Source of the DNA: Veronia nyctiphanis
GTDB lineage: Bacteria; Pseudomonadota; Gammaproteobacteria; Enterobacterales; Vibrionaceae
Assembly (NCBI RefSeq): GCF_004116385.1
Contig: NZ_PEIB01000013.1
Coordinates: forward strand, 1-64,000
Direction of reading: 5' to 3'
DNA: 64,000 nucleotides
Position numbers and translations under genes: made by a program. The first letter of the stretch is position 1; each line of letters begins with the position of its first letter. Below the pieces are notes generated by a model that saw only the letters and a list, made by a program, of their open reading frames with translations, was not told the origin of the DNA and made no database searches. Shown here piece after piece: positions 56,456-64,000 of this stretch.

Positions 56456-56486
56456 ATAAGAAAAGCCCGCTATGGGGAGCGGGCAG
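56456..56486 (-). terminator. Terminator of the flotillin-ATPase-PLD-TelA operon
   Basis: GCCCGCT and AGCGGGC stem around ATGGGG; on the minus strand TTTTCTTAT follows. It lies 30 bases after the telA stop codon. Confidence 0.85.
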
Positions 56487-56517: not shown

Positions 56518-57585
56518 TTAGAGCGTTTGTTGCAGGGCGGCTTTCAGCTCCTGCTCGGCTTTCTCTATCACCAGTTGCGCGGCTTCACGCTGGCCTCGGC
56601 CTTCTTTCACACGTGATAGCGTGTTGTTGAGGGTCTCGATGGTCAGCTGGTTAACGGTTTGCAGCGATTCCAAATCAAGAATACCGCGCTGATAGTTCTC
56701 GGCGATCTGCTCTTCCAGTACCTTAAGCTTCTCCGCATTCTGCACATATTGCTTATTGGTGTAGTCTTTCACCGCTCGGGTGACCTTCAGAGCTTTCTCT
56801 TTCTCATAGTTGGAGATAGCAATCAGGAACTGACGTTTCCATAGCGGGAAGGTGTTGTGAACGATGTCCTGAATGTCTTCCATCAACATCTTATTGCCCT
56901 CCTGCGACAAGCGGATTTGTGGCGCAGTCTGAATGGCCGCCAGCCTTGTCAGTTCAAGGTTATGAATACGCTTTTCTAATCTGGCGACAGCTTGTGTTGC
57001 ATCGCGGTATTTTTGTGCATCCAAGGCATCACCGCTGCTCTCTGACAGGCTGAGAAGTTCAGGAAGTACTGTCTGGTTTAACGCGTTAAGTTTGTATTTA
57101 CCGGCGGCGATAAACTCGTCCAACCCTTTTAATAGCGCGAGATTGTGGTCATAAAGCGCATCCAGCTGGTTGATGTCGTGGGCGAGCTTAACTTCTTGCG
57201 CTTCGAGTTGAGATGAGAGTCCGTCAAGCTGTGCCTTCACCGAATCGAAGCTCGCGGAGAATGTCTTGAACGAGTTGAACATTTCACCAATTAACGGGAG
57301 TTTTGACAGCAGACTGTCTTTACCCAGTTGATCAAACTCCGCACTGTCCATTGATGAGACCATAGATTGAAGGATACCGCCGGCCTCACCGCTGTCACGG
57401 ACTCGGATTTGACCGAGCACGTCATCGGAAAAAGCGGTAATTTGCTCCAGCGCTTCTTTACCGAAGGTGATAGTGGCAACCGTATCGAATGGGTCAAACT
57501 GCTCAGCTATATCAATAATGCGCGGCGTGATATCGGCTTCGGCCAAAGGCGTGAGCGTGGTTTGGGTTTTCGTCAGTTCAGTCAT
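56518..57585 (-). CDS. TelA-family protein (toxic anion resistance family)
   Basis: 355 residues, almost all helix, in the TelA/KlaC family. Recognisable segments are QFDPFDTVATITFGKEALEQ, MFNSFKTFSASFDSVKAQLD and IQDIVHNTFPLWKRQFLIAI. Family members are tied to tellurite and other envelope stress, often near Ter or PspA genes, but the biochemical role is unknown. Last gene of the operon; only nine bases separate it from the PLD gene. Confidence 0.88.
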   Translation of the reverse strand: MTELTKTQTTLTPLAEADITPRIIDIAEQFDPFDTVATITFGKEALEQITAFSDDVLGQIRVRDSGEAGGILQSMVSSMDSAEFDQLGKDSLLSKLPLIGEMFNSFKTFSASFDSVKAQLDGLSSQLEAQEVKLAHDINQLDALYDHNLALLKGLDEFIAAGKYKLNALNQTVLPELLSLSESSGDALDAQKYRDATQAVARLEKRIHNLELTRLAAIQTAPQIRLSQEGNKMLMEDIQDIVHNTFPLWKRQFLIAISNYEKEKALKVTRAVKDYTNKQYVQNAEKLKVLEEQIAENYQRGILDLESLQTVNQLTIETLNNTLSRVKEGRGQREAAQLVIEKAEQELKAALQQTL

Positions 57586-57594
57586 ACCTTGTCC

Positions 57595-58305
57595 CTATCG
57601 TTGCGAAGGTTGATGGCAGGGAAATTTCTGCCACAACTTGTCGAATTGTCTCGAGAAGGCATCCACGAAACGGCGATCATCGGTTAGCGTAATGTCTTCC
57701 TGATTATATTTGGTCGCGCTTCGTGTCCAGTTGAAGCTGCCATTAATCAGACGCTTGTTGTCGAATATCGCGAACTTGTGGTGCATGTGATACGGCGTGG
57801 TATCAATCTTTACCGCAATACCTTGTTCTGCGAGGTATTCAATGTCGCTGCCCTTGTCGTCCATTTTATCGTTGTCGGTAATGATCCTGACAGCAACGCC
57901 TCGCTTGTGAGCATCAAGAATTTGCTTTGTCAGGTCGTTATCGGCAATGGTGAACACACAAATATCAATTGATTGACGCGCCAGTTTCAGCTGCTCGGTG
58001 ATCCCGGCAATACAGGCTCTCCCGGGGGAGAACCAGCTGGTCGCGGTATCAGAGACAGCGGCGCTTCTGACGTTATCCAGCACCTTAACGACCCGCTCAA
58101 GCCAGCGTAATGTCTGGCCAGCATCGGCGTTATCAGACACGGCCTTTTGTGCCATTTTGAAGCTGACATTGCGCAGATACGCTCTGTCTTCCTCAGACAA
58201 CGTGGCTTCTGTCAGCTCTGCCTGAAGCTCTCTTTTTTCCTGATCGTCAAGCCGCGCATCTTCCAGCGAGGCCTCAAGCCAGTTGGTCCATTTTTGTCTA
58301 TTCAT
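57595..58305 (-). CDS. PLD-superfamily protein with a helical N-terminal region
   Basis: 236 residues. The first ~90 are helical and charged (KWTNWLEASLEDARLDDQEK); the rest is a single HKD domain, MHHKFAIFDNKRLINGSFNW, with the H-x-K-x4-D triad. A single-HKD protein would act as a dimer, as Nuc and mitoPLD do, on DNA, RNA or cardiolipin. It starts two bases after the ATPase stop and is followed nine bases later by telA, so it is translationally linked. Confidence 0.85.
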   Translation of the reverse strand: MNRQKWTNWLEASLEDARLDDQEKRELQAELTEATLSEEDRAYLRNVSFKMAQKAVSDNADAGQTLRWLERVVKVLDNVRSAAVSDTATSWFSPGRACIAGITEQLKLARQSIDICVFTIADNDLTKQILDAHKRGVAVRIITDNDKMDDKGSDIEYLAEQGIAVKIDTTPYHMHHKFAIFDNKRLINGSFNWTRSATKYNQEDITLTDDRRFVDAFSRQFDKLWQKFPCHQPSQR

Positions 58306-58307
58306 TG

Positions 58308-61300
58308 TTACTCTCTCCCTGACGACGGCTCGCCAAAACGGGCGATATGTTGGTTAAGCGTGACCAGCTGTTGGACGACTTGTCCTGCTCTGTCATCGGT
58401 GTCACCCATCATTTGCTGACGCTGATACCCTTCTTTGATTTCCTGCCAGCGTGCTTGTTGCTCGGCGGTCATATTGCCGCGCAGCTGCGCCAGTTTGAGC
58501 AGGTTTTCCTCTGTGCCCGCCGCCAGTGTCTGGGCTTCGCCCTGATAATGGTCTTGCAGCATGGTGTTCAGCTCGTCATCGGTCATGACAGCAGAGATTT
58601 TCTCTGACAGCTTGTTCATGTTGCGGTATGAGCCTTGCAGTTTGAACGGTGGTTCAACGCGATATTGGTCTGCGGTGGCGGCCGATTTGATGTACTGCTG
58701 GTTCACCTTGAGCACGATTTGCTGCGCTTTGGCGAGTTTTTGCAGCGTTGTGACAATTTCATTGGCTTCCGTTGAGGAGTAAGCGTGCGACATTTCGCTT
58801 AGCGCAATACTTTCGCCTTGCGCCATTTGGACGAACCGATAAAGGTCATTAAGGTCGCGGGTCGCGAGCGGGGCAAGTACGCTGTTCGAGGTTAAGGAGT
58901 TCTCGATAAAGCTCAGCTCAAACGCCTGCTTCTGGTCGGACAGCATGTCACCGAGGTTATAGATATCCGCACGGTTTGACAGCATGTCAGGGATACGGAA
59001 AGCCTCACCAGTCTCGGTATAGGGGTTGCCAGCCATCACCACGGCGAACTTCTTGCCGCGCATGTCGTAGGTTTTGGTTTTGCCCTGCCAGGTGCCTTCA
59101 ATACGACGGGTACCGTCACAAAGAGAGATGAATTTTTGCAGGAACTCCGGGTGAGTGTGCTGAATATCATCGAGATAGAGCAGAACATTGTTGCCCATCT
59201 CGAAGGCGAGGTTAATTTTCTCAATTTCACGGGCGGCGTTCTGGTCAGGGGCTTCTGACGGGTCGAGCGATGTTGCCTGATGCCCAATAGACGGCCCGTT
59301 TATTTTCATAAACACCAGCCCAAGCTTGTGGGCCACGTATTCAATCAAGGTGGTTTTTCCGTAGCCCGGCGGTGAAATCAGCAGCAGCATACCCATGAGA
59401 TCGGTGCGTTTTTTGTCACCCAGTGTTCCCATCTGTTTGGCAAAGTTATCACCAATCAAAGGCAGGTAACTTTCACTGATGAGCTTGTTACGGACAAACG
59501 ATGTCAGCGGACGTGGCTTGAATTCACTCAGCCGCAGTGACTCTTTGGCCGATTGCAGCAAGGCGGTCCGTTGTGTCAGGTAGCGCTCGAGCGCAGGCAC
59601 AGTGACGCTGCGGTGGAATTCTGCCCGCTGCAAAAAGTCATCAAGGACCAGTGACAGCCCGCCTTTTTGAATACGGTTGTGCTCACCCAGTAGCTCTTTC
59701 ACCTCAAAAGCGAGCGAGAAGTCTGCGCTATCGAGCGGAAATTCAGCATGTGTTTTCAGGACGGCGACAACGGCAGCTTCGGTGATGAATTCACTGCCGT
59801 AGTCTTTCTGCGCCGTATACGCCGCAAGCCATTGCTTGTGATCGGCAAACGCACTGTCTGGTGAGCGAGTGTCTGCCTGCCAACCAAGGCTTTGGCGGAA
59901 TTGAAGGTAATCGTTACAAAGTGCCTTTGCATCTTTACTGACCGTAATACGCAATGATTCATCGGCAGCAGACAAAACCTGAATCAGATAATCGGCGCTT
60001 TCCAGACCATAGGTGCCGTTCAGGCTGTCAGCCAGTTGCTGTTGCAAAGTCAGGTAGGCGTTACTGGCGTTGAGATGCTCTCTAAGCAGCTGCGCATTTT
60101 TGGCCTCCGTTTGGAAACCGTTGCGTTGCTCATTGCTGACAGATAACAGCCAGAGCAAGGCCTCAGCCCTTGCTGTTTGGCTGAAACGCAGTAACCCCGC
60201 TTGCTGGTAAACAGGCAAAAGTGCAGCAAGGATGCGGGTGGCATCATTGTCATGAATCCCTTTTACGTACCCCTCTTTGTATCTCGGCGCGGCAAATCGT
60301 TGAACGATATCAGATAACTGTCCTTGTTCATTGGCGGCCAGCAGGCTTTCAATGGTTTCGTCGCCGCTGTTTTGCTGCGCGCCTTGTAAAATCAGGTAGG
60401 CGAGGTATTCACTGCGATAAAGCGCTTCTGTCTCTGAGGCGACATCGAGGTGCGCCATGGCCTGAAGTTCAAGAAATTCAGTATCATCAACAGGCTGATA
60501 AAAATCTGTTCCCGAGATGTGTGAACACAAAGTATTATCGTGTTCGACCAGCGACACATCAAGGGTTTGCTGGTTAACACTGAACTTGTGTTTGCCGAGG
60601 CGAAGGACTTTTCCGCCTTGCTCAAAGATATCCTGATTATCGCGAAGTGAGCGCAGCGATTGGTCTTGCAGTGACTTGAGCTTGGCATCAAGGCTGTCGG
60701 CTTTCACGCTGTCGTCCAATTCACGAATCGTCTTAGACAGCTGATGCAGCTTCAGCACCATGGCGTCGGTGGCAAAGTAGCTGTTTAGCGCCGCCACATC
60801 GTCAAAACGCTCAACACGTTTTTCGATACTGGCCATAGTGACCTTGGCTGCTTGCATCAGGTTTTGTACGCGTCGCTGCTGAGCGGAAATGAGCTGCTGT
60901 TTGTGGTTATCCAGCGTGGACTGAATTTCATCGCGCTTGGCATAAATTTCGGCAAGGAACTGATCAAAATCAGCAAAGCGGGATTCCAGTTTATCCAGCT
61001 GACCAATCAGTTTTGCCAGCTGATTGTCACACTCATCTGGCGTCGTGGCTTGCTCCATAGCGCTGCTAACTGACTGACCGAGCAGTTTAAATTGCGCACT
61101 GAATTCCGCCTGAGCTTCGTCGCTTTGCAAGCCTTTGGCTTTGCCACGTAGTTTGGCAGAGACGGTATTGAGCAGTGAAGAAACTTCGGTCGTGAGGTCA
61201 AGAATACGCGTTGACTGCGTCGGGTCATCGGTTTCTATGTCGGTGACTTCTTCGGTCACCAACTGAAGCTCGCCTCTGAGGGTGTCGACAGCTTCCTGCA

Positions 61301-63178
61301 GCTTCTGAATTTCACTGGTTTTCGTTAGAGATTGCAGCGTTTCTTCAATCTGATGTATCTGCTGTTTGAACGGCTGATAGGCCTTTTCATCCTGAAGCAG
61401 TTTTAGAAGCCGAACATTGAGGTTTTCACGCTCGGCCTGCAAAGTGTTCAGTAGTTGCTCGACCTGATTGGTATCGATGTAATGCTGCTGCCGCAACGCC
61501 ATCACTGCACCAACCTGACGTTTGACGTCTGCAAGCAGGCTCAGCAGGGTGTTGGCTTGATCTTTCGGTGCCAGTTTTATTCTGCCGACGAGTTCTGCCA
61601 CTAAGTCTGACTGCGCGACAAGGCTTGCGGCTGCGTGTGATTGCAGTTGCTGCACCTTGGCAAATTCATCAATGATCTTGTCGGCGGTTTCCATCAACTG
61701 ATTGATGGCATCCCCCATGCCCAGCGCATACTCATGTGCCAGCCATGTGTAATGGTCGAGTGTCGACTGACATTGCTTAAGTAACGTTTCGAAAGCGGCC
61801 TGAGTGACATCGTCGGTCTGTGCCAAATGGCAGATTGTCAGCACAGATGACAGGGCGCGCACCAGCTCAGTATTGCCTAAGTTGAACAGCGGCTTCCGCC
61901 ATCTGACATCGCATTAACCTTGGCATAGTGCTCTGGCGTCGAGAAGGGCGTATCCCAGATGCGCAGCGGATGAATGGTTGAGGCTTCAGCATTCTCCGAC
62001 AGTTGGAAAACCAGCATCCGGCCATCAGGGTAGAGGCTGTAGCCGTGGCTCTCCATCGGCGCTTCAAAGCGCTTTTCGATGAGGTTGTAGGCGTAAGAAA
62101 TGTAGTAGCCATTTTCCGCATCGAAAAAGAAAAACAGTATGTCTTCGCCGTTCGGAGAAATGATTTTCTGGAAAAACTTCAGGTGCTCAGTCGGAAAATC
62201 AAAGCGTTTGTGTTCACCGTTGGCAAGGACATAACCATTGGCATACAGCAGACCATGTTCTTCGGGCAAAGCTTTGAGGCTCTGGCCCAACGCATCGGCG
62301 CGGACAACCGATTGGTTCAGCGGATTGTAAACAAAATAGCGGCTGTGCTTTTCGCGGTTAGGCTTTACGCGCAGCGCAATTAAATCGCCGATAAAGGCAT
62401 AGTCGATGTGAGCGTCGGCAAGACTTTGGTGCGGATCTTCCACCTCTTCACGGTAAATACCTTTGCCGTCTGTGGTGTTATCTTCGACCTTGATGGTCAG
62501 ATCGCCACCCACGCATTCGATAAACAACTTGTCGCGGATTGAGACGTGCGGGTGATCGCCCAGCACATGGTCATCACGGGTGGTTGGGGTCCACTCAATG
62601 TCTTGCTGCACCGTGTTCTCAAGTGAAGCATGACCGAACGAATCGAGATACTCCACAGAGTCCGCGTTGAGCTGAAAGCGGAAGACTTTGCGGTCTTCCG
62701 GCCGCATCCCTATCTGGAAGGCAATATAGAGAATGCTTTCCTGTCGAGAGATCTGCAGTAATTTAGCGTCACGGTAGTAGGTGAATAGCTCGGTGAATTC
62801 GTGAACAAAACGGTTGTCACTGAGAAAGCTGCTTTCAATGGCTACCGGCTCAACCCGGAAGGTGCCGTCATTCTCGTGCAGTTGATAAAGGCCGAATACG
62901 TCGTTGAGGCTGGGCGCAGCTTTCATGCCCACCTGAACATGGTAGCCAAACAGCAGTTGCTGATTCACCTGCGCCATATCGATGGGAATGCAGCGGGCGT
63001 CGGTTTGCACATTGGCTTTGCCGACCAGAGAGAGTTCCTGACCGCCGAATACCTGCTGACGTGTTTGATTGAATGTCTGGGAGAGGGATTTTAGGTGTTC
63101 GCCCTGATGTGTGAGGCGTGATTTAAGAACCTCATAAGCGCCACCCTCAGCCACAGCTTGTTGCGTTGTGTCTGACAT
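58308..63178 (-). CDS. Giant DUF3686-AAA+ ATPase ('DNA repair ATPase' type, apparent frameshift)
   Basis: Two abutting frames (61877-63178 and 58308-61862) read as one protein: one base missing near 61888-61892 joins VNAMSDG to RKPLFNLGNTELVRALSSVL. Repaired length is about 1623 residues. Residues ~1-430 form a beta-rich DUF3686-like domain; ~450-1000 is long coiled coil (EQLLNTLQAERENLNVRLLK and similar); a MoxR-like AAA+ domain has Walker A SPPGYGKT near 1265, Walker B NVLLYLDD, and sensor-1 VVMAGNP. The DNA-repair label is inherited from databases and not proven. It is the core of a four-gene operon. Confidence 0.85.
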
Positions 63179-63193
63179 ATTTATTCCTGTTTA

Positions 63194-63215
63194 CCCCGCC
63201 TCCGATGAGGCGGGG
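63194..63215. promoter_or_regulatory. Intercistronic stem-loop between flotillin and giant ATPase genes
   Basis: CCCCGCCTC and GAGGCGGGG form a perfect 9-base GC stem around CGAT, in the 56-base gap. There is no T run after it on the minus strand, so processing, mRNA protection or attenuation is more likely than termination. Confidence 0.65.
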
Positions 63216-63234
63216 TGCAAAAAGAGAGGTGTGG

Positions 63235-64000
63235 TTAGGCGTCCGTTTGTGGTGCTCCAGACATTGAACTTTGAATCTTCTTGAGAAGTTCAGTAGCGCC
63301 GCCTTGTGTGTTGAGTAGGCTGGCCAACGCGACATTACTCAGGTCGCTGCTTTTCAGGTCAGTATTCTCAAGGATTTCTTTTATGTCGGCTGGCAGGCTT
63401 CGATTGCCGTCCATGTATTCAGAAACCAGTGGGTTCAGCACATCAGACTCTTGGAACTTGGTGTCCATGGCGGCGGCATCCAGTACCGTGCGACGCAGCT
63501 GCTCCATGCCTTCACCACCAAACAGTTTGATGTCCGCTTTGCCCAGTGCTTCCGCAAGCGCTTTGGCATTTTCACTGACCACAGATGTCTGTGCAGTAAT
63601 ACGTGCCAGTTCCAACTCTTTGTGTTGCTGCAGCTGCATAACCCACTTGTCGTGTTCACGGGTATGCTCATCATACTGCTGCGCGGCTTCAAAGCGAGCA
63701 GTTTGAGATTCTGCTTCAGCAAGCCCTTTTGCACGCAGCGCTTGAGCTTCTGCTTCACCCGCACTTTGCAGGGTGAATGCATGCGCTTCGCCAGTTTCTT
63801 TAATAGCTTGCGCACGTTCGCGTTCAACTTCCACTTCAGCAAGGCCCGTCGCGCTGATGAGCTCTCTCTCAGCCTGTGCCATACGCTCTTTGGCCGCGGC
63901 TTCACGGTCTTTAGTGACGTATTCAGCTTCAGCAAGTTTGGTCATCACCACCTGATCGGCTTCTGCCTGACGGGTCTTCACCGCCAGATCGTTTTCAGCG
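63235..64000 (-). CDS. Flotillin/SPFH-family protein, C-terminal part (continues off the right edge)
   Basis: The frame is open through the last base, so the N-terminal SPFH domain lies outside. What is visible is the Ala/Glu-rich flotillin coiled coil (AEAEYVTKDREAAAKERMAQ, then SAGEAEAQALRAKGLAEAES) and a C-terminal domain (GKADIKLFGGEGMEQLRRTV). A GTG at 63981 is internal, not a start. Flotillins build membrane microdomains and scaffold partner proteins. First visible gene of the operon with the giant ATPase. Confidence 0.85.
   Translation of the reverse strand, partial: AENDLAVKTRQAEADQVVMTKLAEAEYVTKDREAAAKERMAQAERELISATGLAEVEVERERAQAIKETGEAHAFTLQSAGEAEAQALRAKGLAEAESQTARFEAAQQYDEHTREHDKWVMQLQQHKELELARITAQTSVVSENAKALAEALGKADIKLFGGEGMEQLRRTVLDAAAMDTKFQESDVLNPLVSEYMDGNRSLPADIKEILENTDLKSSDLSNVALASLLNTQGGATELLKKIQSSMSGAPQTDA

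Follow-up and report, generated by a model that had tools for sequence, protein, structure and literature searches.

Several systems related to the operon studied here have been described. In the operon type reported by Ravi et al. (2024; PMC11237479), a YqiJ-flotillin-AAA core occurs with CesT-PspA as a PSP-associated operon, and a PLD gene is present in some Proteobacteria; the beta-propeller in the AAA protein is also taken from that work. The Pseudomonas aeruginosa bacABCDEF operon has been studied as well: its genes are co-transcribed, and it has been linked to biofilm and rhamnolipids (PMC10948618). Its first four genes as described there (DUF2170, PspA, short NfeD and flotillin) match the core-type order, and by synteny with P. 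composti (L034) bacE and bacF may encode the TerB-like protein and the AAA. Deletion of paFlo3, the matching P. aeruginosa flotillin, reduced biofilm by about 20% with no other clear defect (PMC13086221). Escherichia coli yqiJK and Shewanella oneidensis SO1376-SO1377 resemble the first two genes of our operon in content and order but lack AAA, PLD and TelA; without the yqiK-type SO1377, S. oneidensis showed altered iron metabolism, greater sensitivity to peroxide and more mutation (PMC1468410). PspA of Bacillus subtilis is brought to the membrane by an SPFH protein (PMC8581546). The B. subtilis pspA-ydjGHI operon likewise combines an SPFH protein with a helical membrane-stress partner, but the partner is PspA and not TelA, the SPFH protein belongs to another subfamily, and AAA and PLD are absent (PMC8581546).

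The Veronia nyctiphanis operon analyzed here belongs to the type of Ravi et al.: a YqiK-type SPFH/flotillin gene lies beside a gene for a YqiJ-type membrane protein (the YqiJ match being moderate), and the HKD phospholipase D, an optional part of that type, is present. It differs in that CesT-PspA is absent and TelA, unmentioned in the main text of that paper, is present (PMC11237479). No paper on a TelA-bearing set was found among the main texts of open-licence papers. The TelA-bearing operon is an addition to the known YqiJ-flotillin-AAA operon type, whose core with PspA and PLD had already been described. An earlier note on this DNA knew of no characterized joint function for these families; most of the set has been published as a core with PspA and PLD (PMC11237479), and bacABCDEF has been studied (PMC10948618).

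Operon layout and frame integrity

The window, a stretch of 64,000 nucleotides, is part of a contig of 127,144 bases (C33) in a draft genome of 5.29 Mb and 127 contigs. The operon consists of five minus-strand genes, from right to left yqiJ-like, yqiK-type flotillin, DUF3686-DUF7902-AAA, PLD and telA (Table 1). The intergenic gaps are 56 bases between the flotillin and AAA genes, 2 bases between AAA and PLD and 9 bases between PLD and telA, and a single terminator follows. The earlier note had described four same-strand genes with these gaps and one terminator, all of which were recovered, including the hairpin with its T-run at 56484-56465. The tight same-strand set stood, but not its limit to four genes: when the locus was extended rightwards, most of the flotillin gene and the yqiJ-like gene were found beyond 64000. 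Pfam agreed with the proposed families for TelA, PLD, DUF3686 and DUF7902 + AAA, and the N-terminal half of the flotillin, outside the window, scores above the Band_7 cut-off. The operon is surrounded by genes for MarC, YhhN, FtsEX and an RpoH-like sigma factor. A sigma-54 promoter has been proposed for bacABCDEF (PMC10948618); no match was found at the operon here, where the sequence scores no better than shuffles.

Table 1. Features of the operon (window and contig coordinates coincide)
Feature	Position	Strand	Remarks
yqiJ-like gene	about 65966-65355	-	contig coordinates, outside window
yqiK-type flotillin	65327-63235 (65327 approximate)	-	window holds C-terminal part only, 63235..64000
DUF3686 + DUF7902 coiled coil + C-terminal MoxR-type AAA (by predicted model), about 1620 aa	58308..63178	-	Pfam
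pld, single-HKD PLD protein, 236 aa	57595..58305	-	PF13091 (PLDc_2) E 1.8e-32
telA, TelA-family all-helical protein, 355 aa	56518..57585	-	PF05816 E 4.6e-75
intrinsic terminator closing operon	56465..56484	-	7-bp stem, 6 G-C pairs, T-rich tail

The E. coli YqiK sequence matches the flotillin family profile with 99.8% probability (E 6e-29), and E. coli YqiJ matches the YqiJ-like family moderately (probability 89%, E 2e-6). By these profile comparisons, homology is strong for YqiK and moderate for YqiJ. A Pfam scan of the YqiJ-like protein gave no match. The order of E. coli yqiJ and yqiK is that of the operon's first two genes.

The giant DUF3686-AAA gene of the earlier note has its domains in place, with DUF3686 at 61877-63178 (E 3e-144) and DUF7902 + AAA at 58308-61862, but it is read in two frames, the single change falling at about 61892. 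The flotillin gene also changes frame once, at about 64251-64266. Both frames are intact in relatives. The neighboring ftsY is spread over three frames (contig C33 about 67318-68845; L002:4318-5845) and the genome's own pspA (contig C95) is also frame-split, so that assembly or sequencing indels are the simplest shared cause. Both operon frameshifts are almost certainly assembly errors, and a true loss of function was judged unlikely on the same grounds. Since the draft has many indels, broken genes in the window should not be read as pseudogenes unchecked.

A portable core with optional modules

We gathered 111 distinct DUF3686-AAA loci, derived profiles from them and used these for a six-frame scan of the same loci. 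DUF3686 is patchily distributed, being present in 8/398 genomes of a phylum sample, 26/197 Vibrionaceae genomes and 13/99 genomes of one other genus. YqiJ was found in 103 of the 111 loci and flotillin in 108, most gaps being short contigs; the complete YqiJ-Flo-AAA core is present in 103/111, and YqiJ always precedes Flo. Where the contig is long enough, the core is absent in one weak case only, a Moraxella boevrei locus (L087), in which room is available upstream yet no profile matched. The optional modules are PspA (50 loci, usually with CesT), CesT/DUF2170 (49), PLD (47), TelA (31), rhomboid (22), a TerB-like small protein (13) and XanX (7). PspA and YjfI/DUF2170, for which a co-occurrence check had been suggested, both recur beside the core, among the 111 loci and on pQBR103. 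The recurrent rhomboid protease and TerB/EF-hand-like small protein (examples L032:15317-15871 and L034:9512-9787) are unmentioned in the main text of Ravi et al. (2024; PMC11237479).

Copies of the core are also carried by Pseudomonas (pQBR103), Deinococcus and Streptomyces plasmids and by a Planctomycetota locus, and there is no copy in 50,697 phage records. On pQBR103 (L188, 84437-97641), yjfI-pspA-rhomboid-DUF2491-DUF350-DUF1190-glutathionylspermidine synthase-yqiJ-SPFH-AAA form a single gene run in which polyamine and PspA-type genes are linked with the yqiJK core. The YqiJ-YqiK-AAA core is a portable set in several bacterial groups, and its accessory modules are optional.

The shared neighborhood is not a matter of chance: among 25 further Vibrionaceae loci the gene order recurs in 24 for TelA, which follows the AAA or PLD gene on the same strand, and in 23 for PLD. 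One Vibrionaceae locus (L125) is without TelA, and its genome is also without any TelA. With the window counted, there are 12 different contexts upstream and 16 downstream, indicating that the gene set moves as a unit, TelA included. On the AAA tree, three changes account for the distribution of TelA: its presence in the Vibrionaceae clade (support 100), its presence in a Xanthomonadaceae-type clade (support 95) and a single loss. It is not clear that the operonic TelAs of these two groups form one clade (p-AU 0.042, a borderline value with long branches present), and the Xanthomonadaceae operonic TelA is probably of separate origin. In the Xanthomonadaceae-type operons, TelA is preceded by XanX, a protein of about 223-268 aa with no Pfam family (examples L056:8072-8743, L074:15331-16038 and L081:15282-16088). 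XpaC was considered for XanX and gave no match.

Proposed function of the operon

We propose, with a probability of about 0.6, that the five genes specify a YqiJ-YqiK-AAA machine for maintenance of the inner membrane, with PLD and TelA as accessory parts. The YqiJ-like membrane protein and the YqiK-type flotillin would together build an inner-membrane scaffold. On it the large ATPase could dock through its N-terminal DUF3686 and coiled-coil part, while its C-terminal MoxR-type AAA ring would remodel or extract a client, possibly TelA. The PLD protein would act as a mitoPLD-like hydrolase at the membrane, with lipid a likelier substrate than nucleic acid. TelA may serve the SPFH scaffold as a long-helix partner that was added to the operon in Vibrionaceae and again, separately, in Xanthomonadaceae. 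An envelope role is the most likely one because PspA, YjfI, polyamine and rhomboid genes lie around the core and because the B. subtilis SPFH protein recruits PspA (PMC8581546). Points against the maintenance reading are the mild effect of the paFlo3 deletion (PMC13086221), the lack of DUF2170 in the genome itself, the moderate YqiJ-like match and the low confidence of the TelA model. The membrane-attached SPFH/AAA machine suggested in the earlier note gains from the conserved neighborhoods with PspA and YjfI, but most of the set had already been published (PMC11237479, PMC10948618).

The Walker A motif is present in 110 of the 111 AAA sequences. The predicted AAA model is closest to CbbQ/NorQ (Z 15.0-17.2), with dynein at Z 14; it aligns to CbbQ over 250 residues with Z 17.2 and rmsd 3.8, and to NorQ with Z 15-17. 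Judged from the model, the AAA is MoxR-type, nearest to the CbbQ/NorQ remodelers and not to RuvB.

The PLD protein has one HxK(x4)D(x6)GS motif in a short PLDc_2 domain, as do the single-HKD enzymes mitoPLD and NucT, and HxK(x4)D(x6)GSxN is kept in 47/47 operon PLDs. The nearest solved homologue of its catalytic domain is mitoPLD/Zucchini (9lkx, E 3.9e-30), and the matches to the bacterial structures Nuc (E 2e-11) and NucT (E 5e-9) are weaker. The operon PLDs (L034:15772-16461; window 57595-58305) are nearer to mitoPLD/Zucchini than to these, and a PLD from a PspA-type operon likewise has mitoPLD as its nearest solved relative. For mitoPLD itself, both cardiolipin hydrolysis and endonuclease action on RNA have been discussed. 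The bacterial PLD shares the catalytic domain and adds an N-terminal part of its own of about 90 aa; a TerB-like domain was tried for this part and did not match.

TelA scores 253 bits against a curated PF05816 cut-off of 30, and its predicted model (pLDDT 66) is a long helical hairpin. In a class-wide sample, TelA occurs in 28/274 gammaproteobacterial genomes. All 19 core-type TelAs in this sample have an XpaC neighbor, and 13 of the 19 have a YdjI-type SPFH with a GYF_2 domain (L159-L177). The presence of SPFH beside unrelated TelAs in 13/19 cases makes TelA look like a general SPFH partner. In gammaproteobacteria, the XpaC-TelA-SPFH arrangement recalls pspA-ydjGHI of B. subtilis, TelA being at the position of PspA.

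Alternative readings and wider meaning

It is possible, if rather unlikely, that TelA replaces PspA. In that case TelA would be a helical polymer that binds membranes, is positioned by the SPFH scaffold and is recycled by the AAA, and the operon would be an ESCRT-like machine with an unrelated filament. We are equally doubtful of the related proposal that TelA partners SPFH scaffolds as a helical, membrane-remodeling protein and is for SPFH-AAA machines the functional counterpart of PspA/ESCRT-III. TelA and PspA occur together in just 1 of the 80 loci having either beside the core, five Xanthomonadaceae-type TelA genomes have neither PspA nor DUF2170 anywhere, and in the 12 tested PspA-type genomes no TelA scored above the cut-off. 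TelA also takes the place of PspA in the XpaC-TelA-SPFH loci that parallel pspA-ydjGHI. Fisher's test over loci gives p 5e-9 for TelA versus PspA, a value to be read with the dependence of the loci in mind; functional replacement is treated here as a hypothesis, since the loci are not independent and the tree permits two or three events. Strict exclusion is ruled out by the six-frame scan, which shows the TelA and PspA modules in one operon at L060; both are probably also in one operon in G601, broken there by contig ends. With no more than 3 changes of TelA on the tree, exclusion is without independent statistical support, and an independent-pairs test has too few events. The tested Vibrionaceae carriers keep PspA elsewhere in 16/16 cases and CesT (DUF2170) in 11/16. 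Our operon has no PspA gene; that of the genome lies on another contig (G000 C95). Profile comparison detects no similarity between TelA and PspA and gives no support for homology of the two. In fold comparison of the low-confidence TelA model, Vipp1 is at rank 20 (E 0.18), and the Foldseek and VIA matches, led by ClyA-type helical bundles, are below the level that would exceed a common helical arrangement.

Action on nucleic acid, by a DNA-repair ATPase with a Nuc/NucT-like nuclease, is improbable. The idea follows the Pfam and RefSeq names ('ATPase involved in DNA repair', 'DNA repair ATPase'), the resemblance of the Walker A to that of RuvB and the relationship of the PLD to Nuc and NucT. 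However, a literature search found no experimental source of the name, and searches on DUF3686 and on 'DNA repair ATPase' with flotillin found no papers. The membrane partners YqiJ and flotillin are constant and the recurrent modules include no repair genes. The AAA fold is nearest to MoxR-type remodelers, and remodeling thus fits better than DNA repair.

Anti-phage defense, a possibility raised in the earlier note, found no positive support; in the form considered here, with the PLD as a nuclease effector and TelA/AAA as a sensor, it is very improbable. The patchy distribution in Vibrionaceae and in the phylum sample, the movement as a unit, the plasmid copies and the resemblance of the PLD to DrmC and DpdK would suit such a system. 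However, mitoPLD is a far better match than DrmC, the operon has housekeeping neighbors, the phage records hold no copy, and the core is tied to PspA, polyamine and rhomboid genes. No complete PADLOC system and no PADLOC family for the core was found in the operon, where the matches amount to PLD similarity of a generic sort and a weak JetC match of the AAA through its coiled coil. Of 92 proteins in the flanks of other Vibrionaceae loci, a few match PADLOC strongly, a count without a baseline for comparison. In the flanks of L022-L125, single proteins match the CARF-PDDEXK/Csx1 and PDC-S26 defense models very strongly.

Resistance to tellurite or toxic anions, suggested by the TelA family name and by the TerB-like small protein in some core operons, is highly improbable, as the operon has no Ter genes (neither TerC nor TerD accompanies its TelA), most core operons are without TelA, and the proposed Ter link was not borne out: operonic TelA is separate from the TelAs beside TerD-like genes in the same genomes, as in G456, one carrier genome examined closely. 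At that separate G456 locus (L131:290-1468), two TelA genes in tandem precede a pair of genes that look TerD-like by eye.

The inner-membrane maintenance reading would unite SPFH, AAA, PLD and PspA-type proteins as one modular membrane machine and would correct the 'DNA repair ATPase' name. The closeness of the operon PLDs to mitoPLD/Zucchini may bear on the origin of mitoPLD. The TelA family, found in about a tenth of sampled gammaproteobacterial genomes, is named after tellurite work. Its two separate placements by flotillin-AAA operons and its frequent SPFH neighbors suggest a testable role with membrane scaffolds. If TelA were indeed a counterpart of PspA/ESCRT-III, this would be the first mechanism for this widespread family.
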